DNA from: a virus
Length of the DNA stretch: 21,535 bases
Reading direction: 5' to 3' (one strand)
IMG/VR virus record: IMGVR_UViG_3300028025_003648
Location: 1 to 21,535 of that record
Part shown: one piece after another, positions 2,879 through 19,336 of the stretch
Layout of the letters: each line of letters opens with the position of its first letter
How positions within the stretch are numbered: position 1 is the stretch's first letter
Position numbers and translations under genes: made by a program
The notes under the pieces: model-generated
Databases searched by the model: none
What the model saw: only the letters and a program-made list of their open reading frames with translations
Told to the model about the DNA's origin: nothing

Positions 2879-5800
2879 TTAAACCTCACTCAAATAAACA
2901 GTCATATCTGGCCCTTCTGAACTTTTAGCATAACCTATATTATATACTACAAATCGATCTTTAGAATCTGATACTTGGTTTACTCCCATACTGTCTGTAT
3001 AGTCAACAGTAACAATATCACCAAGTTGAAGTGTTGGAATGGCAAATATTTTTAAACCAATAGATCTTCTAGGCTTAACCACCTTATTTACAATCCACTC
3101 CATTAAACTGTTTGCATCGTCTTGAGTTTGTATGTATGGTGTTTCTAAAGAAAAATCTTTTTTGCCATATGTCATTCTGCTAACCTTAATGTCTTTAAAG
3201 TCATTATCGTATTTTATTGGTGATTTTATTAGACTTGATCCTGATATCTGTGGATTAGAAAAGTCACTGTTTTTATTAAAGAACTCATCCATAGTTAACT
3301 GATGCTGAGATTCTTGAGTAAAAGTTACTCCCTGAATTCTTAGGTAGTTTCCAGTTGTTTCATCTAGACTGAGGGCTGTGTCTGTAGCATTAAATATTAA
3401 AAACTCTGCGCCATAGGAACCTGCTCTAAATCCAGATACTGTGTACCCCTTAATTCTATTAAAGGTTGGTGATAATTTTGCATAGAGTGCAGGATAAGCC
3501 TTATCATATCTTACATTAAAGTATGCTGCCTCTCTCATAATTGATCCAAATTCTTCAAAGTACATATTGTATGCTGGTGGCTCAGATGGACTTATTCCTG
3601 AAAGATATGTTGATTGAACTATTCCACTCATTGCATACTTTCTAAACGACTCATTAGCATCAATCTCTTGATCATCTACAGAAGACATTACTGGTGTGTC
3701 TAATGCAAAGGTAGTGTTTTGAGTATAGTTATTTGTAAGTGCATATAAATTTTCAAACATACACCTTGCAGAACCTCTAACAAACATTGCCATATTGTTA
3801 TAAACTGGAAGTGGCTCTTTGTCATCAACTGTTGCAACTAACCTATTGTTTATGTAAAGAAAAAATCTTCTTATGTTTCCAACATTTTGATACTCTACAG
3901 CCAAATCATATACCGTTGGATTTTCTTCGCCAACCATTCTGGATTGTCCAGTAAACTTACCGTCATCAACAATAATATTTGTTAATCCTCCCCAGAGTTT
4001 TACTGGTATAGCCTTAGATGTTGCTGAGTCTCTCATTACCTTATAAAAAAGAACATTGTCTAGGTTTTGTGCTGAGTCGCTATAACTACTAATATTGTTT
4101 TCTGTTAAAGCCAAAATTTCAAAGTAGTATCCTACGTTTGTTTCTGGATTAAGCATTACGGCAAGCCCACCAGATCCTGCACTAATGTTGATGTTTTGAT
4201 CTGGAGAGTTTCCAGTTACAACAAAGTAGGTGTCACTTCCAATAGGAGTTTGTCCACGGCTTGTATTGTTTTCAATTTTTCCAACAATTCTCATTCTTGT
4301 TCCAAAATGCTTATATTTATTATTTAATTTTTTATGTACGTAAGATACAAAATCAATACCTTTGTCAGTAGTAGTAAAAGATGGTCCATTAAGAATAAGC
4401 GCAGATGATTGGATTGTTCCGCTTTGTGTTGTTAGCAGTCTATTTATATCTGTTTCTGTTCCATAGTACTGTGAAAGAAAGTTTTTTATTATACCAGTTC
4501 TAACTGTCTTTTGTGCTAATGTATTGTTCACTCCCGCTGCCAAGGTGTCTAAGGTCAATGCCTCTGTTTGGGCATCAACAGATGTTGGATCTGCAAGACT
4601 AAACAGTAGTTCTGATCTCATGGTACAGCCACGAACAGAGTCGTTTGATGTCCAGTACGGGTTTAGTCCAGCAACATGCTCCACTACTGGAGTCCCAAAC
4701 TGTCCTCTTCCATGTTTTGACACTGCTCCATTTTTTAACTTAACAACACCATTAACCGTTTGGTAGTTAGGAACAGAATAAATTCTAACAAGTCCTGTTG
4801 GGTATATCTTTCCGTTGTGTCCTAGTTTTGAAAAATAGTTCTGATACTCAAGAACATCGTTTATCCAAACATTTCCGTATCCAGTTATGCTGTATTCGAC
4901 TGCATCGTATTTTATAATCTCTGAATTAGAATAAAAATATCCATTGTATCTTGAAAGCCAGTAAACTCCTTCTCCAAGATCCATAGTATTGTTAACTACT
5001 GTGTTATTTATAACTGAAGGTACAGAAGATGAAAGGTTAGATGTTAGGGGTATTGCACCAAGAACGTAACTTGACTGACTTTTTGCCTGATCATTAATTG
5101 ATTTTGTATTTTGATCTCCCGCAACTTCCCAAAGAAGTGCTGGTTTGTATATCCAGGTTTTTTCTTTATCAATTAGGCTTGCTTGCTTAATAGAGCCATA
5201 AGTTTTCTGTATATATCTTGTTTTATAGTTAATGCTTCCATCATTAAAAATGTCACTGTTTTGAGAAGATATAGATATAATGTTTGCAAGTTTAGTTTTA
5301 GTTTTTTTGTTTTCTACTACCCCATCGTCAACTGAGTCTTTTGATCCAGACAAAACAAAGTCTGTTGGTCTTTGGCTTTCTTCAGGTAGTATGTAGTTTT
5401 TGCTCATCATTACAAAGTTGTTATACTCGTCAAAAAACATAGCGGTCTGTGTTGATACTGCCAATTCATTTAGTATCTGTGCTACTGTTTTGTCTGGTGG
5501 TATAAAGAAGTAAGGGATGATTGGATCTTTTTCTCCAACCGTTCTTTTAAATACATAATTAGAAAAACCAATAGAGTCTAATAGCATTGACACAGCAGAT
5601 GTTAAAGATGCATTAGTTGCCAAAGTTTGTGGTGCAGTTAGTGATTCAAAATAAGAGAACATGTCCCTTAGTTTTAAAGATACTTGCCTGTTGTCTGTGT
5701 TTGACTCTGGAAATCCTTCTGTGTACATTGTTTTCATTGGAACAAAATAGTCATAGCCATCAACATTAATAATAACTTCATACATTTTTATTTGTATGTT

Positions 5801-7199: not shown

Positions 7200-7871
7200 C
7201 TATGCCTCTTCCAGTGTTACTGATATATTCCAAAAGTCATAATTAGAATTTCCACGTTTTACAACTGTGTACTGAAATGAAGATAAGAACATTTCAATAA
7301 CTTGATTGTACTGCCCTAGGTGTCCGTAGGCTGCATCATCTTTACCAAAATTAGAATGTTTGTCGTATGAAAGGTATACCCAGAAAGATCCCTGGTGATT
7401 CTCATACCAGTCAAGCATATCAACTCCACCTGCTCCTCCGTCTGTTGTATATTGCATATCAACAGATGACGGTTTGCCAGAGTAACCAGTATAGTCTGAT
7501 TTTCCAGTTACAGAATTAAAGTCTGGAGATAGTGCGAATGCTCTAGATGGAAGCATGTTCCAGTTCGTTGAAATTTTTAACTTATCAGCCACATGATAAG
7601 ATCTCATTCTTCCATTAATCATTCTTTCACGCTTTTCAATTCTGTTTGTATCAATAGATATTTCTCCTCTATTGTCATCTGATAAGATTAAGAATTGATC
7701 CAACAATGACTGATCAACTGCCGTTGCAGGCTGGGCTCCCACCTCGTATCCGTTAGGTAAATAAAGGCTATTTGATAAGGTGCCAGAATTCTCTGACCAG
7801 AGCATTGCTTGTGGTCTTCCATACTTTTTTCTTCCTGCCATATACTGTGCAGCCGTTGGGTTAGTAGCCAT
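7200..7871 (-). CDS. Distal tail protein-like minor tail protein
   Basis: A 223-residue protein placed exactly where siphophages carry the distal tail protein (Dit), between the tape measure and the hub. It forms the ring that joins tube to baseplate. The N-terminus is MATNPTAAQYMAGRKKYGRP. The middle contains the basic run NRIEKRERMINGRMRSYHVA and an aromatic-rich part (WYENHQGSFWVYLSYD), and the C-terminus ends in two long strands (QVIEMFLSSFQYTVVKRGN, YDFWNISVTLEEA). This C-terminal 'F-x-Y-x-V-x-K-R ... Y-D-F-W-N-I-S-V-T-L' pattern is seen in tube and Dit-family proteins. The start ATG 7871 overlaps the tape measure stop as TAATG. AGAGG lies about 12 bases upstream, so coupling probably dominates. 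The Dit name rests mainly on position; 'minor tail protein' is the safe reading. Confidence 0.72.
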   Translation of the reverse strand: MATNPTAAQYMAGRKKYGRPQAMLWSENSGTLSNSLYLPNGYEVGAQPATAVDQSLLDQFLILSDDNRGEISIDTNRIEKRERMINGRMRSYHVADKLKISTNWNMLPSRAFALSPDFNSVTGKSDYTGYSGKPSSVDMQYTTDGGAGGVDMLDWYENHQGSFWVYLSYDKHSNFGKDDAAYGHLGQYNQVIEMFLSSFQYTVVKRGNSNYDFWNISVTLEEA

Positions 7872-10800
7872 TATAAGTTATTACCTCTTAATTTCATAGA
7901 ATCGATTTGTCTAATCTTAGACATTACTGTATTTGCTATTTCGTTTGCATTCGCATCAGACCTAACATTTACTGTCAAATCATAATTATACACTGATCCA
8001 AGTTTCTGAGATCCACTATTTATGCCCTTCATTGTTTCAGTTCCATAACTATCGACAGCATACTTGCTCATTACAAATTCTCCAGGACTTAGCATTGCTG
8101 GAACTGTATCTCGTCCTACAGAGAAACCACCTGCCAAGAATTTAGTTGGGTCAATCAAACCACCCTTTGCAAGTTTGCTTGGACGACCTCCTGGATACTT
8201 TGAAGTAATTCTATTCATTGCTGCATTTGCTAGGCCATTATCTCCATCGGCACGGAGTCTTGCTACTCCTGCCATTAAAGAGTCATACTCTGCTTGCTTG
8301 GCTGCTAGGTCTCGCTCTGCTTTTTCTGCTGCTGCCTTTGAAGTTGCTAGTAGTGCTGCTGCTCGTAGATTCACTTCTGATGCTGAGTCTGTGCTGCCCT
8401 TTGTGTCTTCCCCAGCATATCCCTTAACCCAACCATTGGTATCGCTCCAGCCATAATCTCCTACAGGCTTGGTTGGCTTCTTCCATCCACCTTTACCGTC
8501 AGAAATCCATGCTTTGCCTGGAGACTTGGTTGGATCTGTTTTCCCTGCATTTGGATCTGTTTTCCCTGCATTTGGATCTGTTTTCCCTGCATTTGGATCT
8601 GGCAAACCAAGTGCAGTACCATATGTAGTGACTATATGCTGAGTAATAGTTATAGACTTATCTTTAATTGCATCATAGGATTTTTTAATATCATCCCATG
8701 CACCCTTTATTGTTCCAGAAACTGAATTAACACCAGCAAGCGCTAAAGCAAGATCTCCCTTGGCAAGTTTTTCTGCAGCCTGTGCAGCCTTTAATGTAAG
8801 ATCCCACTCTGCTCTAGTCTGTCCTTGAATAATTCTATTTCTGTCATTTGAAGTAATTTGTGCTGCTAACAAATCGCTTTGTGATTGCAGTGGAAGAATC
8901 TTGTCTTGAATTGCCTTAAGATCGTTTTGTTGATCTAATAATATTCCATAAGTAATTTTTGCAATTGCATCTGTCTTAACTTGAATTGCATCAGTTGCAG
9001 CCACCTTAAGTAGTTCTAGATCGTATATATCATCCTGGATTCCAAGTATTTGTTTATCTACCGCAGCCTTTTTGAGTTCTAGGTCATAAATCTTCTGACC
9101 AATGTCCCACTGCTCTTTTTCAATTTCTTTCTGAGTCTTTCCGCTTACTCCACCACGAAGATTACCAACTTCATTTTCTCTTGATTTTTGCAAAGCATCT
9201 TGGGCACTGGTTGCATAGTTTGCTGCATTAGATGCTCGCATATCTTGAACTGCTTTTGCTGCTGCTGAAATATCTCCTTGGGAAAGAGCATCTGCCAAAC
9301 CAAGTTGTTGCTGCTGCTGACTAATAATTTGCTGATTGATTTCTGCAACTTTTGTAAGAGCCTCTTGCTGTTTATCATATTTCTCATTGATCGCTTCAGC
9401 AGCCTTATTCATAACATCTAAGTCATGAGATAGGACTGAAGATCTTTCTTGTAATGCTTGGATTGGTCTAGTAAAGTTAATTTCTGCGCTTCTTGCTAAC
9501 TTCTCTATCTCTCTTTGCTTCTTTTCAATTGGTCTAGTAAAGTTTGTTTCTATAGCCCTCTGGTCTGCATCAACATCTTTTTGCATATCATCAATCTTAG
9601 ATTGAGTTAGGTTAATAGCATTCTGTGCAATCTTAGATTGATTTCCTAGGTCTTCCATCATAACTTGAAGACCAGCAAATGTATTACCCTGAGAATTTGT
9701 TAGTGTGTTTTCGTCAATCATCTTGTAGGCATCAAACATTTCTGCTGCAGCGGTTGCTGCATTAATTATTTTTTCTTCTCTTGTTTGAGTAAATACAATT
9801 TCAATAATTTTTCTTTCTGGTATGTCTTGGATCTGTGAAAGCAAATGATTAAATTCATCTTGAGCATCTTTTGCAAGAGTAGCAAAGTTGTCCATACCGT
9901 TAATCAATGTATCTAGCATTGCTGGGTCAGAGATTGCTGCACGAATTGCTTCTGCACTCATGCCACCTTGTTGCATCATTGCCACAACTTCTGGGATTCT
10001 CTTTTGGTTGTCTGTAGTCTTCTGTAAATCTTTTTGTCCAGCAACTGCTCCATTAATTTGATTTCTAATTCTTGCTTGCTTTGTTAGCGCAGCATTGGTT
10101 TCTAATTCTGCCTTTGTTACCTTACCTGTAGCAATAAGAGTCTTATAGTTTTCATCTGCAAGCATTGCCTGAATGTCTAGTTCATCAAATCCTAGTGCAA
10201 GAAGTTTTCCTCTTGCTGCAATTTCCTGCTTTGCTAATGTTACAGACTGGAGTTGTGCCTTATTGTAGTCTCCAATAATAGCCTTCTTATATCCCTCCTC
10301 CATGTCTCTACCCTTTTGGGTAAGAACAGTGTCTCCTGCCTTAAACTTCTGGTACTTAGTAACCATCTTTCCAGTTTCAGGATCTACCTGAGTATACTTT
10401 TGCTTACCCTTTTTCTTTTTTACATCTGCTGCTGTTGCTGTATAAGCAAACTTCTTTAAGTCTTTTGTATCAAGGCCAGCAAGGTAATCTGTGAATTGGC
10501 TAGTCTGTCCCATCTTAATTAACTGCTGCTCAAGACCCTTAAACTTGTTTCCAATAGCCTTACTTCCAGTTGCTGCAATCGCTCTTTGAAGTTCTTTAAA
10601 TCCTCCTGCTGCATCAATTGCAGCGTTACGAACATTACGAAGTCTCTTCATTAGTTCGTCATAAGTGGTGTCTCTTTCTTTTTTGTCGCCAGTTCCATCG
10701 TCAACACCGCTCTTAACATCAATGCCCTTAACTACTCCAATATCTAGGTTTGTTTGTGCTCTGTCTCCAGCAGTCTGAGACAAATAGTCTTTCAAAAGCA

Positions 10801-13800
10801 GTGCTCTAGCATCCTTGTATGCCTGCGTTCCGTCTTGTAAGAGTCTATAGTCTGCATTGGTAATCATTTGCTTTTCTATAAAGAGTTCTGCATCTGCTTG
10901 AATTTGTTCAGCGTTTAAGCCTTTTTCATATGTGTATCCAATAGCAAGTTTTTGTAAATATTCTGTTTGTTGATCTCTTGAAAGTTTTCTAAACTCTTTC
11001 ATCTTCTCTTCATTTGCCTGCAAAGACTCAATCGCTTGAAGATCTTCTGGAGTAGCCTTCTTTGCTTTTTCTAAGAACTCGTCTGCAGTAGTAGTCTTAC
11101 CACTCTTTTTATCTTCTGCTTCTGTTTCTTCTTTTAGTTTCTCTAAGAGATCTTGTCTTCTTTGAATTTCTTCTAGGACTGCTGGGCCACCCTTTAGAAC
11201 TAGTTCCATGTCAATAGTTAAACCATCAAGTGCTTGAAGGTTCTTAAGGGTTTCCATATTCTGATCAAACTGTGGACCCTTTTCCAACTGAACCATATAC
11301 TTAACTAATTTAGTTGCAGTTGCTTTACTCTTAAATCCTGCAAACATATTAAATAGTTCTTTAGTCTTTGCGCTTCCTCTTTCAGTAAGAGATAAAGTTA
11401 GAAGTTGGTTTAGTTGACCAAGTTTTCCAGCAAACATCTTTGTATATGACATTGCTTCATCTGGGCTAAGAACCTTACTGCCAACAAGCATTTGAAGTTT
11501 TGCCTGGAACTGCTGTGCTGCTTTACCAGAAGCAAGTCCGTTTGTTGTATATGCTCCATTAACTTTAGTTGTAGCAGAAGTTGCTCCAGTCTCAAATTGC
11601 TTTGTTTCTTTTAAGAATTTATCTGCTGACTTTTCTTGATCTGTTCCAGCATATGCAGATTTAACTGATGCGCTTTGACCATCAAAGAATGCATCTTCAC
11701 GCATTGCTTGGCCACCCCAAACAGAACCGCTATACATCTTATTAAAGTCTCTTTGTCCCATTGCAATCTGAGTGCCAAGTTGATTGTTCATTGTTTCAGT
11801 TGCAAGGGTTGCATCTGCAGTTACTTGTTTAATTTTTTCTTCTAGTTCTAGTCTCTTTTGAGCATTTGTTGTTGATGCTAGTTCTGTTTCAAGTTTTTGC
11901 TTTTGCTTTTGATAATGAATTTCAAGTTGATCCGCCATCATGGTGGTCATCTCTAGATTGTTCATATTTAGAGCAGCGAGTGCAGCAATATCTTTTCTTT
12001 GAGACTTTCCAGCCTCTTTGTCTTTTTCAATATTTCCAAGTGTCTTGGTGCTTCGTGCTCTTGCATTTGCAATAAGATTAAGTCTGGTCTCTAAAGGTTC
12101 CTTCTCTAAGTTTTCTCCATTTGGACCAAGAAGAGTTCTAATTCTTCCAGTAACTTGCATCTGAACTTTTTGATCCTTTAATGATAGAGCAAGTGCCTGA
12201 GAAATACTTTCTGCTTGCTCTTGACTTAAGACTCCGTCAGCAATCTGTGCTGCTAACTTTAGACCAAGATCATCTGCTGCTTTTTCATTTCCAAATTTCT
12301 TTGTATTTTCTTTAAATGTTTTCTTTGTATCTTTTCCAAGATCTGAAGACATAAACTTTTTACCAAATTTATCTGGAACCTTGTAAGACTCGTTATACTT
12401 AGTGTATTGAGAACCCTGTCTTCTTCTATCCATAATCTGAGAGGCACCGACATTACCAGTCATCTCTCCCATCTTTTTCATGCTATCTCTTGTAGCAGAT
12501 GTTGCAAGAACAAACTTTGCTGACTCTGCAGCCATCTTATTAAAGTGCTGGTTGAGCATATATGCTCCTGCACCAACTGCCATAATTCCTGCTGCTGCCC
12601 AGCCTACTGGCCCCATGCCAGCGAGCATAGGCGCAAACTGTGCAACAGTAGTTGCTGCTCCTAATGCTGCTGTAACTTGTGGAGGAGCCCCTGCCATGCC
12701 TGCAACCATTGTTGCTGCACCTAGTGCACCAGTTGCTTTACCAGAAACCTTTCCAACCTTTTCTCTACGCATACCACGCTTCTTCTTTTTAATTTGCTTT
12801 TCAGTCATGGTTGTTGGTTGCTTCTTGCCATCTGCGTCTAGTTCTGGATCAAACAGTAAGTGACCATTCTTGTCTTTTGTGTATCCTGGGTTTGAATCTG
12901 TACCGTCTCCAAATGCCTCATCAAGAGCCTGGGCTTCAGTATATCTCTTTTTACCTGTTTGGGTAAGATCGCTATTTGTCAAAGATGCATTTTGCTGTGC
13001 AAGTTTTGAATTCATTTGTTCTCTCAAGAACTTTTCTTCTTCTTGTAGTTTATTTATATCTTCTTGAGACATTGCTGTATCTATTGTGGATCCGTGAATA
13101 TCTCCAGTAGTTCCTACAATTGCATCATTTAAAACTGCTGTCGTTACTACATTATCTAGGTTTTCTGTTTGTGCTGGGATAATGTCTCCAGTCACTGTTG
13201 CAAGTTCATCTGTTTGATCTGCAACCAAGACAGTTGATTCTGCTGTATCTTCTGTTCCTTCAACAATTCTTCTTAGGCCATCACCTTGCTGCTGTGTTCC
13301 ATTAGAAACTAGTTCCTGATTTTTATCTTGGATTTTTTGAACGTTTCCTATATCTTTTACATCTTCTTCAGATATTACAATGTCTTTGCCGTCAAGTTCT
13401 GCCATTGCAGCAGTTTGTCTTTTCTTTGCTGCTTCTAGTTCTAAAGCATTAGCCTTTTCTTTAGCAGCAAGAACCATTTCATCAGTTATAGTTGTTGGTG
13501 ATTTTGACTTAATTTGCTTTGCTTGCTCTGCTTCAAGTGCTGCTGCTCTTTTCCTAGACTCTGCTGCTTCCTTCTCTGCATTATCTGCTTCTGCACGAGC
13601 CTGACCAATGTTAACAGTGTTACCCTTAATAGTAACTCTTGATTTACTTTCATCTCTGATTTGCTGTACAACCTGTGCTTGTGCGGTTGCTGCTTGCTCT
13701 GTGCTTACCGCTACTTGTTCTGCTGCTGCTTCAGTTCTTTTTGTTGAAGCAATTATTAATGATGAGGTTTGAGATGTAACTGGAGTTTCTGATACAGAGT

Positions 13801-16800
13801 CTACTGTTACATTAGAGCCAAGTTTTCTTCTTTGTCTATCTTGAGACTTAAGAATTTGTCTTTGATCACGCAACTCTGGAGTATCAAGGTCGTCATAAAA
13901 TGCCTTGTTTCCAAGATCCATTTTTGAAACTTTTGCTTGTGTTTCTGCTGCTGAGGGTATTGCTGCATCACCAAGTCTTGCAGATTGTGCCTCAACTTGA
14001 GGCTGGCCTTCTTGCATTCCTTCAATAATTCCATCTGCAATATCTTTACCAACTTTTTTACCTTTTTTAGAAGGAGACTGGGTGTCTGCTCCTTCTGAAC
14101 TCTTGGATCCATCAATTGCTGCTTGACCAAGTTTTGCACCTTCTTCTTTAGCGCTTGCAATTGCTTCTGGTGTAGCCTCAATTCTTGGAGCACCCTGTTC
14201 GTGCATAGGCTGTGTTCCAAGAAGTTCTCCATCTGGTTTTCCAGTTTCAATATTTCCACGAACCGCTGTGTTAAGAATTTTTGAATTTCCTGTATTATCT
14301 CCAAGTGAGTTAGGTCTAAAGCCCTTGGTTTCTAAGAAAGCATTAAGTTCTGCAAGATCTTCTCCAACGCTAACACGAATCTCAGTTACTGCTTGCTTTG
14401 CTGATTCAATAAGAGCATTCCATTCTGGAATTTGACTTCTAATCCCATCTCTTACTTCATATTCTAGTTTAGCAAAAACATCATCAGTCATCAACTCTGG
14501 TGGTTCATTATTAGCAATTCTTTGTTGCTGTATTTCGTTCCATTCTCTTAGTTTTGCTGCAAGTGCATCATCATATATTTTTGCTTGGCCCTTAAGTGCT
14601 TCAAAATCTTGTCCCATAATAGCGGTCATTTCTCGCCATTTATCGACTCCTCTTGATGTAAAATCTGTTTCAAGGTCTTTGCCTAGAGATCCAACACCGT
14701 TGTCTTCTTCATAGCCACGGGCACGTTTTTCATTAGACATTGCTCCATTGAGTGTTCCAAGAAGATCAAACGCATGGGCGTCTGCTACTTTAAGATCTGG
14801 GGCTGCTTTTCCTTTTTTAGCATAGAATTCTCTAATTCCATCTACTTGTCTTTGTGCTTCTTCGTTTAGACTAAGCCTAGATGCTTCAACTCTTTCTGTT
14901 TGTCCAACATGACCAAATTCTTTTTTATAGGGTTGCATAAATTTTGGAGCCCATTGACCCATAACGCTAGAACCAGGAGTAAGTTCACCTTTGTCATTAA
15001 ACTTTCTATCTTGACTAAACCTTTTCTTTCCAACTGTTTCAAGACCTTCTTTTGTTAATTCTCCAAATTCTCTTTTAGTATCAGCAACAATCTTTTTAAA
15101 GGATTCAACAATGGTTGAACGAATTGATTCCATGGAAGTTACAGATGTATCTGTTACCTTTTGCCCTGTAGCCTCAGCATACTTAATTAGTTCAGCATCT
15201 TCCATGTCACGAATGCGAGCAAGTTCTTTTTTGATAAATGGAACAACTCCTGAACCAGCGCCTCCTGATTGGCTAGACACATACGCATTATCGTCTTCGG
15301 TTAGTCCAACCTTACCCTTTTTAAATCCTGGAAGGTCGTCTCCCATTATTGCCTTTAGTAGTGGTGCATATTTCTTTGACTGTGCAGTTGGAACAATTGT
15401 TTCTCCTGGTGCAACCAGTGCAAGAATGCTATCTCCTGCAGATTCGTTACCTGGAACTTTTCCGTCTGCAAACTTTGGCAAACCAGATACGGCACCTGCA
15501 GGTCCAGGAACAGCATTAAATAATCCTGGAGAGCCAGAAGCAAGTGCTCTAGCCTGAGATGCTGCATTTTGATATGCTAGGGCTAAAGCCTCTACTGATG
15601 TTTTTTCTACATTGAATGTTGATATTAAATCTTTGTGAGATAAATGAAGTGCGTGTGTTTGTGCAAGGTTTTCTGTTTCTGCTTGTGTTAGGTAATCAAA
15701 CCCACCACCCAAAACATTGTTTTGTCCGTTAAGTTTTGCAACTCCACCACGAAGCATTGCAAAGAACTTTATAAGGTTTGCAACACCGTTAGCAACAAGA
15801 CCAACTGTCATTAAGACAACTGGAGCAATTCCACCAATAACTCCAATAAATCCAACTACAAACTTTTTAGTTCCATCACTAAGATTATTAAACTTCTCTA
15901 ATATTCTTGAAGCAAACTGAACAATTGGTGTTACTGCTTCTAAAAATGCTTTTCCAATTGGTATAAGTTGTAACTTTAAATTTTCAAGTTGCTTTTGGAA
16001 CTTTACTCCAACAGCATTTTCTACTTTACCAAGTTCTCGCTCAGACAAAATAGCAAGTTCTTCAACTGATGCTCCTGCCAATCCAAGTGCTCTGGCTGCC
16101 TGAGAAGAATCTTTTGTAACATTCTGGAACAGTGTTGATAGACGAGCAAACTGGAACTTACCAAACATTTGCTCAATTGCTCTTGCACGGTTAAGTGGAT
16201 CTAGTGTATCAAGTGCTCTTGCAAATCCTACTACAGTTGCTTTTAGGTCTCCAGCATTAGCATTAACAAGACCCTTAATATTAATTCCAAGTCCCGCTAA
16301 AAACTCACTGGCTTTCTTTGATGGATTAATCATAGAAGCAAGACCAGACTTAAGTGCGTTAGCACCTTCTGATGCGTTGATTCCACCTTCCTTCATTGCA
16401 GTCATAAAGAATGCTAGGTCTTCTACAGATCCACCAAGTTGCTTTACAACTGGTCCAGCCTTTGGAATAGCAATAGTTAAATCTTCAATAGATAATACTG
16501 TCTGGTTTTCTACTGCGTTAAGATAGTTAATTTTTGCTGCAAGTTGATCTGCAGAAATGCCAAAAGCATTCTGAAGAGAAATAGTTGTTTCAAGTGCTTG
16601 CTGTTGTTCTACCTGACCAAGTACTGCAAGTCTTGTTGCATTTGTAACTTGAGCCTGAAGATCTGCACCAGTAAGACCCATTGCAGCAGCCTTTGCTGCC
16701 ATTTCCATTGTGTCTTTAGCAGCAATACCAAACTTTGTAAACTCTTTTGCAAGCATCTGAATTTCTGCAACTGCTTTATCAGTATCTCCAATACTGGTAG

Positions 16801-17515
16801 TCATGTCTCCATAAACTCTTGTAAATCTTACAGTAGCCTCTTCCATTTCTCTAAAGACCTTGGAGGCTGTAGATCCAAGTATTGTAAGAGGGATAGTCAA
16901 ACCAACCATCAACTGACGACCTGCCCACTGAGTGTTCTTACCAAAATTTAAAAGTTGGGTTGAACCTTGCTTGAGAAGTTGATTAAGGAACTGCTGTCTT
17001 TGTGCAGCCATTTGAGTTCTTGTAGCATAGTCAGCATACTGACCATTAACCATTTTAAGGTGCTTTGGAACAACTTGAAGAACCTTTACAAGTTCTCCGT
17101 TGGCATTAGTTAGTTGAACATACTGTGTCTGTAGAGTTTTAACTCTATCTTTCATTGCTCTTTTTAGGACATCTTTTTCTTGTGCAAAAAGACCCTTTAA
17201 GGTTTTGCTATTCATTGTTGCAGCAGCAGCAGTATATCTAAAGTACTGACCCATACTTAACTTATTTTTTTCTAGGGCATCAGTAAACGCTGTAGTACTT
17301 GATGCAATAGTTTTCTGAGATGCAACAAACTTTCCAGTTGCATTAATAGACTGGATAAGTTGTGAGTTTAAACCCTTTTGTGCATTTGCTGCAGCGACAT
17401 TGCCTTCTGTTAGGGCTTGATTGAATTTACTAAGTCCAGCCTGAAGCCTTCTTAGTTGAGCAAGAGCATCACTAGTGTCAAAATGTATACCAATATTAGC
17501 ATTTACATCAGACAC
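7871..17515 (-). CDS. Giant tail tape measure protein (TP901 core family)
   Basis: A 3214-residue protein that sets tail length, is packed inside the tube and probably takes part in DNA entry. Seen by approximate residue: 1-200, helical N-terminus rich in Gln and Ala; 215-420, TP901-type core (EMEEATVRFTRVYGDMTTS ... FFMTAMKEGGINASEGANAL); 548-587, hydrophobic Gly-rich segment FVVGFIGVIGGIAPVVLMTV; about 674-712, a 'DSILALVAPGETIVPT' motif; an internal 'SPSKKGKKVGKDIADGIIEG' motif; 1589-1653, a second Ala/Gly hydrophobic block; 2640-2765, coiled coil with two NFTRPI motifs and then QGDISAAAKAVQDMR; 2972-2995, tandem DPNAGKT repeats; 3116-3160, the usual C-terminal 'GRDTVPAMLSPGEFVM' motif. 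No lytic domain is evident. The start GTG 17515 has AGGGG 11 bases upstream, a long spacing; no better in-frame start exists. At about 0.15 nm per residue the tail would be near 480 nm. Confidence 0.96.
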   Translation of the reverse strand: MSDVNANIGIHFDTSDALAQLRRLQAGLSKFNQALTEGNVAAANAQKGLNSQLIQSINATGKFVASQKTIASSTTAFTDALEKNKLSMGQYFRYTAAAATMNSKTLKGLFAQEKDVLKRAMKDRVKTLQTQYVQLTNANGELVKVLQVVPKHLKMVNGQYADYATRTQMAAQRQQFLNQLLKQGSTQLLNFGKNTQWAGRQLMVGLTIPLTILGSTASKVFREMEEATVRFTRVYGDMTTSIGDTDKAVAEIQMLAKEFTKFGIAAKDTMEMAAKAAAMGLTGADLQAQVTNATRLAVLGQVEQQQALETTISLQNAFGISADQLAAKINYLNAVENQTVLSIEDLTIAIPKAGPVVKQLGGSVEDLAFFMTAMKEGGINASEGANALKSGLASMINPSKKASEFLAGLGINIKGLVNANAGDLKATVVGFARALDTLDPLNRARAIEQMFGKFQFARLSTLFQNVTKDSSQAARALGLAGASVEELAILSERELGKVENAVGVKFQKQLENLKLQLIPIGKAFLEAVTPIVQFASRILEKFNNLSDGTKKFVVGFIGVIGGIAPVVLMTVGLVANGVANLIKFFAMLRGGVAKLNGQNNVLGGGFDYLTQAETENLAQTHALHLSHKDLISTFNVEKTSVEALALAYQNAASQARALASGSPGLFNAVPGPAGAVSGLPKFADGKVPGNESAGDSILALVAPGETIVPTAQSKKYAPLLKAIMGDDLPGFKKGKVGLTEDDNAYVSSQSGGAGSGVVPFIKKELARIRDMEDAELIKYAEATGQKVTDTSVTSMESIRSTIVESFKKIVADTKREFGELTKEGLETVGKKRFSQDRKFNDKGELTPGSSVMGQWAPKFMQPYKKEFGHVGQTERVEASRLSLNEEAQRQVDGIREFYAKKGKAAPDLKVADAHAFDLLGTLNGAMSNEKRARGYEEDNGVGSLGKDLETDFTSRGVDKWREMTAIMGQDFEALKGQAKIYDDALAAKLREWNEIQQQRIANNEPPELMTDDVFAKLEYEVRDGIRSQIPEWNALIESAKQAVTEIRVSVGEDLAELNAFLETKGFRPNSLGDNTGNSKILNTAVRGNIETGKPDGELLGTQPMHEQGAPRIEATPEAIASAKEEGAKLGQAAIDGSKSSEGADTQSPSKKGKKVGKDIADGIIEGMQEGQPQVEAQSARLGDAAIPSAAETQAKVSKMDLGNKAFYDDLDTPELRDQRQILKSQDRQRRKLGSNVTVDSVSETPVTSQTSSLIIASTKRTEAAAEQVAVSTEQAATAQAQVVQQIRDESKSRVTIKGNTVNIGQARAEADNAEKEAAESRKRAAALEAEQAKQIKSKSPTTITDEMVLAAKEKANALELEAAKKRQTAAMAELDGKDIVISEEDVKDIGNVQKIQDKNQELVSNGTQQQGDGLRRIVEGTEDTAESTVLVADQTDELATVTGDIIPAQTENLDNVVTTAVLNDAIVGTTGDIHGSTIDTAMSQEDINKLQEEEKFLREQMNSKLAQQNASLTNSDLTQTGKKRYTEAQALDEAFGDGTDSNPGYTKDKNGHLLFDPELDADGKKQPTTMTEKQIKKKKRGMRREKVGKVSGKATGALGAATMVAGMAGAPPQVTAALGAATTVAQFAPMLAGMGPVGWAAAGIMAVGAGAYMLNQHFNKMAAESAKFVLATSATRDSMKKMGEMTGNVGASQIMDRRRQGSQYTKYNESYKVPDKFGKKFMSSDLGKDTKKTFKENTKKFGNEKAADDLGLKLAAQIADGVLSQEQAESISQALALSLKDQKVQMQVTGRIRTLLGPNGENLEKEPLETRLNLIANARARSTKTLGNIEKDKEAGKSQRKDIAALAALNMNNLEMTTMMADQLEIHYQKQKQKLETELASTTNAQKRLELEEKIKQVTADATLATETMNNQLGTQIAMGQRDFNKMYSGSVWGGQAMREDAFFDGQSASVKSAYAGTDQEKSADKFLKETKQFETGATSATTKVNGAYTTNGLASGKAAQQFQAKLQMLVGSKVLSPDEAMSYTKMFAGKLGQLNQLLTLSLTERGSAKTKELFNMFAGFKSKATATKLVKYMVQLEKGPQFDQNMETLKNLQALDGLTIDMELVLKGGPAVLEEIQRRQDLLEKLKEETEAEDKKSGKTTTADEFLEKAKKATPEDLQAIESLQANEEKMKEFRKLSRDQQTEYLQKLAIGYTYEKGLNAEQIQADAELFIEKQMITNADYRLLQDGTQAYKDARALLLKDYLSQTAGDRAQTNLDIGVVKGIDVKSGVDDGTGDKKERDTTYDELMKRLRNVRNAAIDAAGGFKELQRAIAATGSKAIGNKFKGLEQQLIKMGQTSQFTDYLAGLDTKDLKKFAYTATAADVKKKKGKQKYTQVDPETGKMVTKYQKFKAGDTVLTQKGRDMEEGYKKAIIGDYNKAQLQSVTLAKQEIAARGKLLALGFDELDIQAMLADENYKTLIATGKVTKAELETNAALTKQARIRNQINGAVAGQKDLQKTTDNQKRIPEVVAMMQQGGMSAEAIRAAISDPAMLDTLINGMDNFATLAKDAQDEFNHLLSQIQDIPERKIIEIVFTQTREEKIINAATAAAEMFDAYKMIDENTLTNSQGNTFAGLQVMMEDLGNQSKIAQNAINLTQSKIDDMQKDVDADQRAIETNFTRPIEKKQREIEKLARSAEINFTRPIQALQERSSVLSHDLDVMNKAAEAINEKYDKQQEALTKVAEINQQIISQQQQQLGLADALSQGDISAAAKAVQDMRASNAANYATSAQDALQKSRENEVGNLRGGVSGKTQKEIEKEQWDIGQKIYDLELKKAAVDKQILGIQDDIYDLELLKVAATDAIQVKTDAIAKITYGILLDQQNDLKAIQDKILPLQSQSDLLAAQITSNDRNRIIQGQTRAEWDLTLKAAQAAEKLAKGDLALALAGVNSVSGTIKGAWDDIKKSYDAIKDKSITITQHIVTTYGTALGLPDPNAGKTDPNAGKTDPNAGKTDPTKSPGKAWISDGKGGWKKPTKPVGDYGWSDTNGWVKGYAGEDTKGSTDSASEVNLRAAALLATSKAAAEKAERDLAAKQAEYDSLMAGVARLRADGDNGLANAAMNRITSKYPGGRPSKLAKGGLIDPTKFLAGGFSVGRDTVPAMLSPGEFVMSKYAVDSYGTETMKGINSGSQKLGSVYNYDLTVNVRSDANANEIANTVMSKIRQIDSMKLRGNNL
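8532..8601 (-). repeat. 21-bp tandem repeat in the tape measure gene, three exact copies plus a partial one
   Basis: Three exact head-to-tail copies of the 21-base unit (units at 8532-8552, 8553-8573 and 8574-8594 on the plus strand) are followed by the first 7 bases of a fourth. Each unit encodes the heptapeptide DPNAGKT on the minus strand, giving a flexible Asp/Pro/Gly-rich linker before the last 240 residues of the tape measure. Because copies are identical at DNA level, the array is probably young and could change in number by slippage without shifting the frame. Confidence 0.95.
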
Positions 17516-17543: not shown

Positions 17544-17855
17544 TTATTTTGATGTAAGCAATGCTGTAGGATCTGTAAGTTGAATACCAGAGGCTGCATC
17601 GATTACTGCGTATACTGTTGGCAAGTCGATATTATCTTCTAGTTGCTCACGAGTAACTTCTTCCTTTACGTATTGCTTAAATGCAATTTCTACACAATCT
17701 AAAAGAACATTCATTGACTCATCGTTATTATCTGACACATCTGAAAGTTCCTGGAACCTCTTCATAAAAGGCTTAAGTAAAGAAATCTTTAGCGGTCTAA
17801 CATCAATAGTTGTACCATCAATGAGAGTTATCTTCTTTGTTGTTTGTTCTGACAT
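17544..17855 (-). CDS. Short tail assembly chaperone
   Basis: A 103-residue acidic protein immediately upstream of the tape measure gene, the standard site of the gpG-type chaperone that coats the tape measure during tail assembly. The start is ATG 17855 (MSEQTTKK), with GGAGG 5 bases upstream; the in-frame TTG at 17867 is inside that ribosome binding site and is rejected. The strand set LIDGTTIDVRPLKI, the helix KPFMKRFQEL and the C-terminal IDLPTVYAVIDAASGIQL are each matched in the same order by the longer chaperone encoded just upstream, so the two are paralogues. This one has only the shared N-terminal domain. It has its own candidate extended -10 promoter at 17883-17891. The 28 bases to the tape measure start carry no terminator. 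Confidence 0.85.
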   Translation of the reverse strand: MSEQTTKKITLIDGTTIDVRPLKISLLKPFMKRFQELSDVSDNNDESMNVLLDCVEIAFKQYVKEEVTREQLEDNIDLPTVYAVIDAASGIQLTDPTALLTSK

Positions 17856-17882
17856 TATTTCCTCCAATAGGTTTGTTGATTA

Positions 17883-17891
17883 ATTATACCA
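17883..17891 (-). promoter_or_regulatory. Candidate extended -10 promoter for the short chaperone
   Basis: On the minus strand the gap between the two chaperone genes carries TGGTATAAT, a perfect extended -10 (TGnTATAAT). No convincing -35 lies about 17 bases upstream. Transcription would begin near 17876, giving a leader of roughly 20 bases that contains the GGAGG ribosome binding site. The same motif occurs in other gene gaps here, which strengthens the call, but it is unproven. Confidence 0.5.
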
Positions 17892-17907
17892 TAGCGACAG
17901 GCTTATT

Positions 17908-18591
17908 TTAGTCTATTTTTTCGTAGTCTAAGCCCATGCCAATACCAAATCCAGCGCTAGTTGCATTTTGGCCTTGAAGAGCAAGGATGTCTCTTGAGTC
18001 GTTTGCTTGTCCACGACTAAATACCCTAGCCTTCATATCTTCCCAAGCATTACTTTTGTTTGCATTTTTATCTAAGTCTACACCCTGCATTGCTGCCATA
18101 AATTTTTTTGTAGCATAGTCTTCTTCTCTTTTTACATTTAGTATTGCAGTTATCTCTTGCATTGATAAAGATCTTTCTAGTTCATCATAGTCTTTCCAGA
18201 TACCCAGCAAAAAAACTTCTGATTCTAGTTTTGCCAAATCAAGGTCTTCCCAAGTTGCCCCAGACCTAACTGCCTGATTTTTTACTCCTTCATCAGATTC
18301 TGCATCTACCTTGATTCCTGCAGCATAGTCTAATAGTTTATATATTGTTTTTAAATCTATTGCATCTTCAAAGTCTTCAATAGAGTTTGAAATGCTTGGC
18401 ATGTATTGTTTCATACAATTCATTCCACAAATAGCAAGAGCAGATATAGCCTCTATGTCGCCTTTTGCTGATCGAACACCTTCAAAGTCATTCATAAATC
18501 TTCTTAGATATTTAATCTTAAGTGGAGATATTTCTAACTCAGTTCCGTCAACTAAATAAATAATTCCAGTTTTGTATATTTCTGTAGCCAT
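17908..18591 (-). CDS. Long tail assembly chaperone
   Basis: A 227-residue protein when begun at ATG 18591 (MATEIYKTGIIYLVDG). The upstream in-frame TTG at 18621 lies inside the terminator hairpin of the major tail gene and is rejected. Residues 1-95 are paralogous to the short chaperone: LVDGTELEISPLKI, LRRFMNDFEGV and AIDLKTIYKLLDYAAGIKV align in order. Residues about 120-170 (LGIWKDYDELERSLSMQEIT, YATKKFMAAMQGVDLD) resemble the T-type extension of gpGT chaperones, and the C-terminus is WEDMKARVFSRGQANDSRD then AGFGIGMGLDYEKID. In most siphophages short and long forms come from one gene by frameshift; here they are separate genes with the long form first. No SD site precedes the ATG, and a TATACT hexamer ends 6 bases before it, so a leaderless transcript is plausible. 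Confidence 0.83.
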   Translation of the reverse strand: MATEIYKTGIIYLVDGTELEISPLKIKYLRRFMNDFEGVRSAKGDIEAISALAICGMNCMKQYMPSISNSIEDFEDAIDLKTIYKLLDYAAGIKVDAESDEGVKNQAVRSGATWEDLDLAKLESEVFLLGIWKDYDELERSLSMQEITAILNVKREEDYATKKFMAAMQGVDLDKNANKSNAWEDMKARVFSRGQANDSRDILALQGQNATSAGFGIGMGLDYEKID

Positions 18592-18597
18592 TATATA

Positions 18598-18606
18598 AGT
18601 ATACCA
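18598..18606 (-). promoter_or_regulatory. Candidate extended -10 promoter giving a leaderless long-chaperone mRNA
   Basis: On the minus strand TGGTATACT is followed by six bases (TATATA) and then the ATG at 18591, so a normal start site would fall on the A of the ATG. No SD site is present. The motif directly follows the run of T residues of the major tail terminator, a logical place to restart transcription. No good -35 is seen, and the local AT-richness means chance is possible. Confidence 0.45.
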
Positions 18607-18639
18607 AACAGAAAGGCCCAACCCCGAAGGATTGAGCCT
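18607..18639 (-). terminator. Factor-independent terminator after the major tail protein gene
   Basis: On the minus strand AGGCTCAATCC and GGGTTGGGCCT form an 11-bp stem (nine Watson-Crick pairs and two G-T wobbles) closed by a TTCG tetraloop, followed by TTTCTGTTT. The hairpin starts about 18 bases after the major tail stop codon. It is the only strong terminator I found in the window. Confidence 0.9.
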
Positions 18640-18657
18640 CTCATATATTTAGTTGTA

Positions 18658-19275
18658 TTATGCTGCGCCGACTGTGCGGTCTACGATCTTGCCGTATGAT
18701 CCGTTGTCGTTTGGAAGAAGACGGAATGATACTTCGAACATTGTCGCTTCGTCACGCTTTGCTGATACTGATACGCTCTCAATTGAAAGTGCACGGTATG
18801 CAACGTAGACACGCTCGATATTCTCGGTTGCGTCTCCAGTTCCTGGTCCAACTGCAATCAAACCACGCTCTACTGGAACATCGCCAATATCGCCTGCTGA
18901 AAGATTAAGTGTTGGGTTGCTTGAAACTGTTGTTAGATCTGCATCCTTGCCTGCAAGGGCAAATAGAAGGTTCTCTAGTGTTGATTCTGCGAATGTAGTA
19001 TTTAGGTTTACCTGCATGCCTTGCTTAAATAACTTAGCAACGTCAAGTACCTGGTCTACTGCTACTTCGCCGAAATCTGGCTGGAATTGGATTTCCAAAC
19101 CATTCATTGTATATCCAACGTTACGGAAGTCTACATCAGATGCAAGGGTTTCCTTGTATGATGTACCTGCCACGAACGCTGGTCGATCTGCGTCTGCAAG
19201 TGCGCCTGCTTCGTATGTGAAGAGTGCTGCTGCTCCAACGATAATGTCGTTAGAACTACCACGTGTATATGCCAT
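18658..19275 (-). CDS. Major tail (tube) protein
   Basis: A 205-residue protein (MAYTRGSSNDIIVGAAALFT) that should polymerise into the tail tube. The start is ATG 19275, because AGAGGTG lies 6 bases upstream; the in-frame GTG at 19284 belongs to that ribosome binding site. Features typical of tube proteins are a small Gly/Ala-rich N-terminus, NVGYTMNGLEIQFQPDFGEV and VDQVLDVAKLFKQGMQVNLN (strand plus helix), and a C-terminal strand set (VAYRALSIESVSVSAKRDEA, FEVSFRLLPND). Its position before the chaperones and tape measure is canonical. Base use differs from its neighbours: plus-strand 18661-18720 is 33/60 G+C by hand count against 21/60 for 11401-11460 in the tape measure gene, consistent with selection for high expression. 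It has its own candidate promoter and terminator and so may be a monocistronic unit. Confidence 0.88.
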   Translation of the reverse strand: MAYTRGSSNDIIVGAAALFTYEAGALADADRPAFVAGTSYKETLASDVDFRNVGYTMNGLEIQFQPDFGEVAVDQVLDVAKLFKQGMQVNLNTTFAESTLENLLFALAGKDADLTTVSSNPTLNLSAGDIGDVPVERGLIAVGPGTGDATENIERVYVAYRALSIESVSVSAKRDEATMFEVSFRLLPNDNGSYGKIVDRTVGAA

Positions 19276-19327: not shown

Positions 19328-19336
19328 ATTATATCA
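19328..19336 (-). promoter_or_regulatory. Candidate extended -10 promoter of the major tail protein gene
   Basis: On the minus strand the 68-base gap before the major tail protein holds TGATATAAT, a perfect TGnTATAAT extended -10. The start site would fall near 19321, giving a leader of about 45 bases with a strong AGAGGTG ribosome binding site. No clear -35 hexamer is seen. The gap is one of only three of 50 bases or more in the window, which supports a regulatory function. Confidence 0.55.

Follow-up and report, generated by a model that had tools for sequence, protein, structure and literature searches.

The window, by which we mean the whole 21,535-nucleotide stretch (positions 1 to 21,535) of the IMG/VR virus record IMGVR_UViG_3300028025_003648, carries two neighboring genes, A and B, that lie between the gene for the major tail protein (MTP) and that for the tape measure protein (TMP) in the minus-strand order MTP, gene A, gene B, TMP. 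An earlier note on this sequence had described A and B as two separate complete genes for a long and a short tail chaperone, and separate and complete they are. The genes and the elements around them, in the order in which they are read, are as follows.

18658–19275, minus strand: MTP gene, the upstream neighbor; it matches phrog_2175 (E 2.6e-32) and its homologues are annotated as major tail protein
18611–18642, minus strand: intrinsic-terminator-like hairpin in the gap between the MTP gene and gene A, the top site in the scanned region
18598–18606, minus strand: extended -10 promoter-like site of gene A, TGGTATACT, 6 nt 5' of the ATG
17908–18591, minus strand: gene A, putative long chaperone of the GT type (TAC-NC), 227 amino acids, with G fused in frame to T and without a Shine-Dalgarno sequence
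18298–18591, minus strand: G (TAC-N) domain of gene A, residues 1–98, defined by phrog_10504 and by the hhalign comparison with B
18277–18283, minus strand: in-frame A AAA AAT heptamer in the G/T linker of gene A, not conserved
17911–18255, minus strand: T (TAC-C) domain of gene A, residues 113–227, with the phrog_10474 match over residues 131–219
17883–17891, minus strand: extended -10 promoter-like site of gene B, TGGTATAAT, with TATAAT in relatives
17861–17865, minus strand: Shine-Dalgarno sequence GGAGG of gene B, as read from the sequence
17544–17855, minus strand: gene B, putative short chaperone of the G type (TAC-N), 103 amino acids, without a T extension
17565–17573, minus strand: GAT CCT ACA (D-P-T) in gene B, at the position of the relatives' slip site GAC CCA AAN, with the heptamer lost
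7871–17515, minus strand: TMP gene, 3214 amino acids, the downstream neighbor, homologous to annotated TMPs of Streptomyces phages

A and B are paralogues, A being an in-frame G::T fusion and B a second G domain that lacks T. BLASTP aligns the two proteins at 36% identity over 89 amino acids (E 3e-15), and the profile–profile alignment of the N-terminal domains, on which the earlier note had staked the relationship, is strong, matching residues 1–98 of A to residues 1–99 of B (hhalign probability 99.85, E 1.1e-30); these two E-values rule out a chance resemblance. Both proteins match phrog_10504 (E ~1e-17 to 1e-18). The C-terminal extension that had been ascribed to the long form only is likewise real, as phrog_10474 is matched by the C-terminus of A and not by B, and this domain of A is homologous to the -1 frame T open reading frame of Streptomyces and Rhodococcus phages.

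Both proteins are predicted to function as tail chaperones, and homology of A and B to annotated tail chaperones was found in database relatives. Structure prediction, one of the checks proposed in the earlier note, agrees with the paralogy, since the AlphaFold models show the shared domain of A and B in the same element order, E-E-H-H-H-H (two strands, four helices). The HK97 tail assembly chaperone 2ob9 is the top PDB fold match for A (Z 4.0) and belongs to the top group for B (Z 4.5), both being weak scores (<5) that stand among unrelated helical folds of similar score. A fold search of BFVD with either protein returned tail assembly chaperones, including N15 GT. Matches to the Pfam family Phage_TAC_19 are weak and come from 7 of 43 B proteins, and a PDB sequence search with the chaperone proteins gave no meaningful match.

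The tandem arrangement is widespread in related phages. The fused layout, MTP-G::T-G-TMP, was found in 147 distinct loci of the clade of the window, mostly from uncultured or environmental phages, and every complete locus recovered from environmental phages with A, B or the MTP as query has this layout. Further scans, one with a divergent fused A protein and two with MTP alignments headed by a Streptomyces phage or by frameshift-type relatives, yielded this layout and the frameshift one described next, with nothing intermediate. A second layout, MTP-G-T-TMP, occurs in 104 distinct loci from Stanwilliamsviridae, Rhodococcus phages and environmental phages; both counts were taken after duplicate removal among the matches listed (best-80 lists). 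Intermediates, either a fused gene without B or an extra G beside a frameshift pair, were absent from the ~300 fused and ~140 frameshift locus records, and the shorter architectures that might pass for intermediates are loci that merely end early. The observation first made on a single window thus holds over a large clade.

Wherever a distinct two-frame locus was examined, T was in the -1 frame relative to G. Most of the frameshift loci end G with an X XXY YYZ heptamer, C CCA AAN being the commonest form and G GGA AAA that found in the Rhodococcus phages. The Boydwoodruffvirinae have CCCGGAA at the slip position (L241, L242, L245, L246, L249), a non-canonical heptamer that could be an unusual slip site. 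A joined G/T frameshift gene is annotated in three of the records, those of Sham, NiceHouse and Francesca. The G/T frameshift layout is also seen in the un-annotated Streptomyces phage records PP171438.1, PP171439.1 and PP171442.1 (L237, L247 and L246, respectively), and one frameshift-type relative has a tandem pair of major tail protein genes (L467:3013-4336).

In an unrooted tree of the MTP, the fused and frameshift types are split by one branch with support of 100/100. In the G-domain tree, also unrooted, the A, B and frameshift G domains each form one group, with A and B together on one side of a branch supported at 97/89. Given the single change on the MTP tree and the grouping of A with B, the present layouts can be accounted for by a single duplication and a single fusion that followed the separation from the frameshift relatives. 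Since the trees have no root, we read the direction of change, from frameshift to fused, from how widely the frameshift form occurs. The proposal that duplication here stands in place of frameshifting agrees with this comparison, in which the relatives use a -1 slip and the clade of the window has a fusion plus a duplication. We consider it likely that slippage was replaced by two duplicated genes, GT (A) and G (B), whose differing start signals set the G:GT ratio.

A different reading is that the G domains diverged in job, with A alone as the classical chaperone and B as a second chaperone that serves another part of the TMP or another partner, so that G and GT were never replaced. The identity of only 36% between the G domain of A and B, together with their two deep, separate tree groups, fits specialized roles, although divergence after duplication is to be expected anyway once the two forms, which in lambda differ only by T, are encoded apart. 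The length of the TMP (3214 amino acids) leaves room for such a role of B, but both genes are present in all of more than 300 fused locus records wherever the contig extends far enough, and the frameshift capacity of the relatives was lost at the same step, which makes this reading an improbable one beside the replacement of slippage by two genes.

That replacement would place the control of the ratio in the start signals, and these differ between the two genes. The earlier note had credited the short gene with its own ribosome binding site and candidate promoter; the GGAGG and the extended -10 site are both present, and they are kept in about 144 of the 147 relatives. Across these loci, TATAAT precedes B in 144, mostly 23–31 nt 5' of the ATG, and a clear Shine-Dalgarno sequence does so in 145. 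What the earlier note missed is the promoter-like site of A itself, the hairpin before it and the absence of a Shine-Dalgarno sequence, which is found before A in none of the 147 loci. A TGnTAnAnT match stops exactly 6 nt short of the A start codon in 130 of the 147 loci (0.1 expected from shuffles), and the -10 element in this set is usually TATACT, one base from the consensus. In 6 of the 147 relatives a -10 at leaderless spacing is absent, and one of these (L108) has a short leader. A hairpin of at least six pairs with a T-rich tail lies 5' of A in 125 of the 147 distinct relatives, with 36 different apical stems among them, and the intergenic stretch between the MTP gene and gene A in the window has a fold z of -5.9.

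With transcription starting ~6–7 nt after a -10 element, a -10 that ends 6 nt before the ATG would have the mRNA of A begin at the ATG. We therefore infer a leaderless mRNA for A and a leadered mRNA with a Shine-Dalgarno sequence for B, promoters and leaderless start both being predicted from sequence; no host or provirus turned up among the bacterial and archaeal genome contigs searched. The leader style of B (extended -10, ~25 nt, strong Shine-Dalgarno) is like that of G in the frameshift relatives, which have an extended or plain -10 mostly 23–29 nt 5' of the G start and, in all cases scored, a stretch resembling a Shine-Dalgarno sequence, and unlike that of A. The earlier account is thereby refined to a contrast between two predicted modes of initiation, leaderless for the long form and Shine-Dalgarno-leadered for the short one.

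Two further TGnTATAAT sites were seen on the minus strand of the window. One, at 808–816, precedes the start codon of the gene at 355–798 by 9 nt, and this gene is possibly leaderless, or nearly so, as well; the other, at 19328–19336, is upstream of the MTP gene.

It could also be that A and B form one transcription unit whose levels are both set by read-through from upstream, with the promoter-like sites idle. Matches to a consensus are by themselves no evidence of function, and TGNTATAMT sites in the window (6 against 2.5 expected) are mildly above chance; a generic sigma-70 promoter scan, which found fewer sites than in shuffles, is uninformative. However, the spacing and sequence of both sites, as well as the hairpin, are held across 147 divergent loci, and A, having no Shine-Dalgarno sequence, would be poorly translated from a read-through message, so we give this reading little credence. 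The mRNA of A probably continues into B, and the two genes are then not fully independent. In one relative (L028), ~1.2 kb with two open frames (155 and 211 amino acids between stops) separates A (4001–4678) from B. Both chaperone genes and the promoter and leader of B are kept despite this insertion, which suggests that A and B can be expressed apart.

Expression from two start sites would need no slippage, and the slip site of the relatives is lost in both genes. A programmed -1 frameshift is recognized by a T in the -1 frame behind a heptamer, and in A the T domain is in frame with G. In the linker of A, 29 of the 147 distinct relatives have in-frame heptamers. Among 99 representatives the linker count was 19, where codon resampling predicts 10, but an excess also shows over all of A and in B; the linker heptamers were accordingly given little weight, although the one in the window may be a weak residual slip site. 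A relict slip site in A was considered as well, but the CCCAAA and GGGAAA strings that 26 relatives carry near the junction are out of the slip frame. An extension of B by slippage, raised in the earlier note as a product joining the short gene to a further frame, can be rejected on the sequence, for both the -1 and the +1 frame run into stops after a few codons and leave no open frame ahead of the TMP gene. That A makes its own short form by a dnaX-like -1 slip in the linker into a stop, with B an extra copy boosting G, is very improbable: a slip at the A AAA AAT of the window would indeed end after ~108 amino acids, the length of a G protein, and the linker heptamers exceed expectation in the representatives, but they are confined to the minority of relatives given above, the excess, which extends to the rest of A and to B, may be explained by A-rich codon use and common descent, and the relatives' CCCAAAN no longer stands in that frame.

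The replacement of slippage by two genes may be pictured as follows. The ancestor would have had a single G gene from which T was reached by a programmed -1 slip, the state still seen in the present relatives, and G would have been duplicated in the common ancestor of the clade. The upstream copy may then have been joined permanently and in frame to T, giving A, and the downstream copy, B, would have kept the promoter, leader and Shine-Dalgarno sequence of the G type while losing the slip site. Today A would be expressed from its own extended -10, on an mRNA that begins at or beside the ATG, behind a terminator-like hairpin that may limit read-through, and B from a consensus extended -10 through a leader with a strong Shine-Dalgarno sequence, so that the G:GT ratio would now be fixed at initiation and not by slippage. 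In lambda, gpG in many copies and gpGT in few work together on the TMP, contact with the tail tube protein is made through T, and a balanced G:GT ratio is needed (PMC5009743); by analogy, many B and few A would coat the TMP and the T domain of A would recruit the tail tube protein. In Mycobacterium tuberculosis, median RNA and protein levels are lower for leaderless genes than for genes with a Shine-Dalgarno sequence (PMC3898074), and A as the scarce form would fit such levels were the same to apply in the host of the window. We incline, with some reserve, to the fuller statement that control of the ratio at the level of decoding was lost once and replaced by dosage control, through duplication, a leaderless, scarce long form and a Shine-Dalgarno-led, abundant short form.

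Frameshifting in tail chaperone genes is among the most widely conserved recoding events, and Xu, Hendrix and Duda are said to have described the conserved -1 frameshift of these chaperones in 2004. Why it persists is a question on which this clade bears: with one switch between related groups, the gains and losses of moving the ratio from slippage to initiation can be asked about, and the contrast between the two genes raises the testable idea that leaderless messages serve as a low-output setting. The PRFect study notes that a joined chaperone gene is missing from many actinophage genomes, a lack for which its authors partly blame annotation (PMC10885494). For annotators, no joined frameshift gene should be forced in the clade of the window.

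In T4-like phages, TAC-N and TAC-NC reportedly come from separate genes, according to work by Vladimirov, Gautam and Davidson in 2022. To our knowledge, a contrast of leaderless and Shine-Dalgarno starts is not known for the two-gene chaperones of T4-like phages. The passages of PMC12859696 and PMC12846349 that cite a 2022 paper on T4-like phages credit it with proposing a mechanism other than frameshifting. The likeness to the window is one of layout only, with two genes and no frameshift behind the long and short forms; the T4-like phages are myophages with different, probably distant proteins. Some Microbacterium phages (cluster EA other than EA3–EA6) appear to express two open reading frames separately (PMC7302621), and the passage that reports this, unlike the window, features no fused long form with a duplicated short form. 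For siphophages, we found no description of a G::T-G arrangement in the literature.

Like gpG and gpGT of lambda, B and A have a common N-terminal domain, with the T domain on the long form only, and are encoded just before the TMP gene; unlike lambda, which uses one gene and slippage, the window uses two genes and needs no slip. The closest counterparts are the Stanwilliamsviridae (Streptomyces phages Faust, Sham and Karimac) and the Rhodococcus phages NiceHouse and Francesca, which have homologous MTP, G, T and TMP in the same order, the Streptomyces phages also carrying terminator and promoter-like signals before G, as the window does before A. These phages differ from the window in having a single G, a T in the -1 frame and a slip site (CCCAAAT or GGGAAAA; CCCGGAA in Boydwoodruffvirinae). 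Given the reports of separate expression or separate genes in Microbacterium and T4-like phages, the two-gene idea is already known; the new part is a single, traceable replacement of a slip site, beside frameshifting relatives, by two genes with contrasting start signals.
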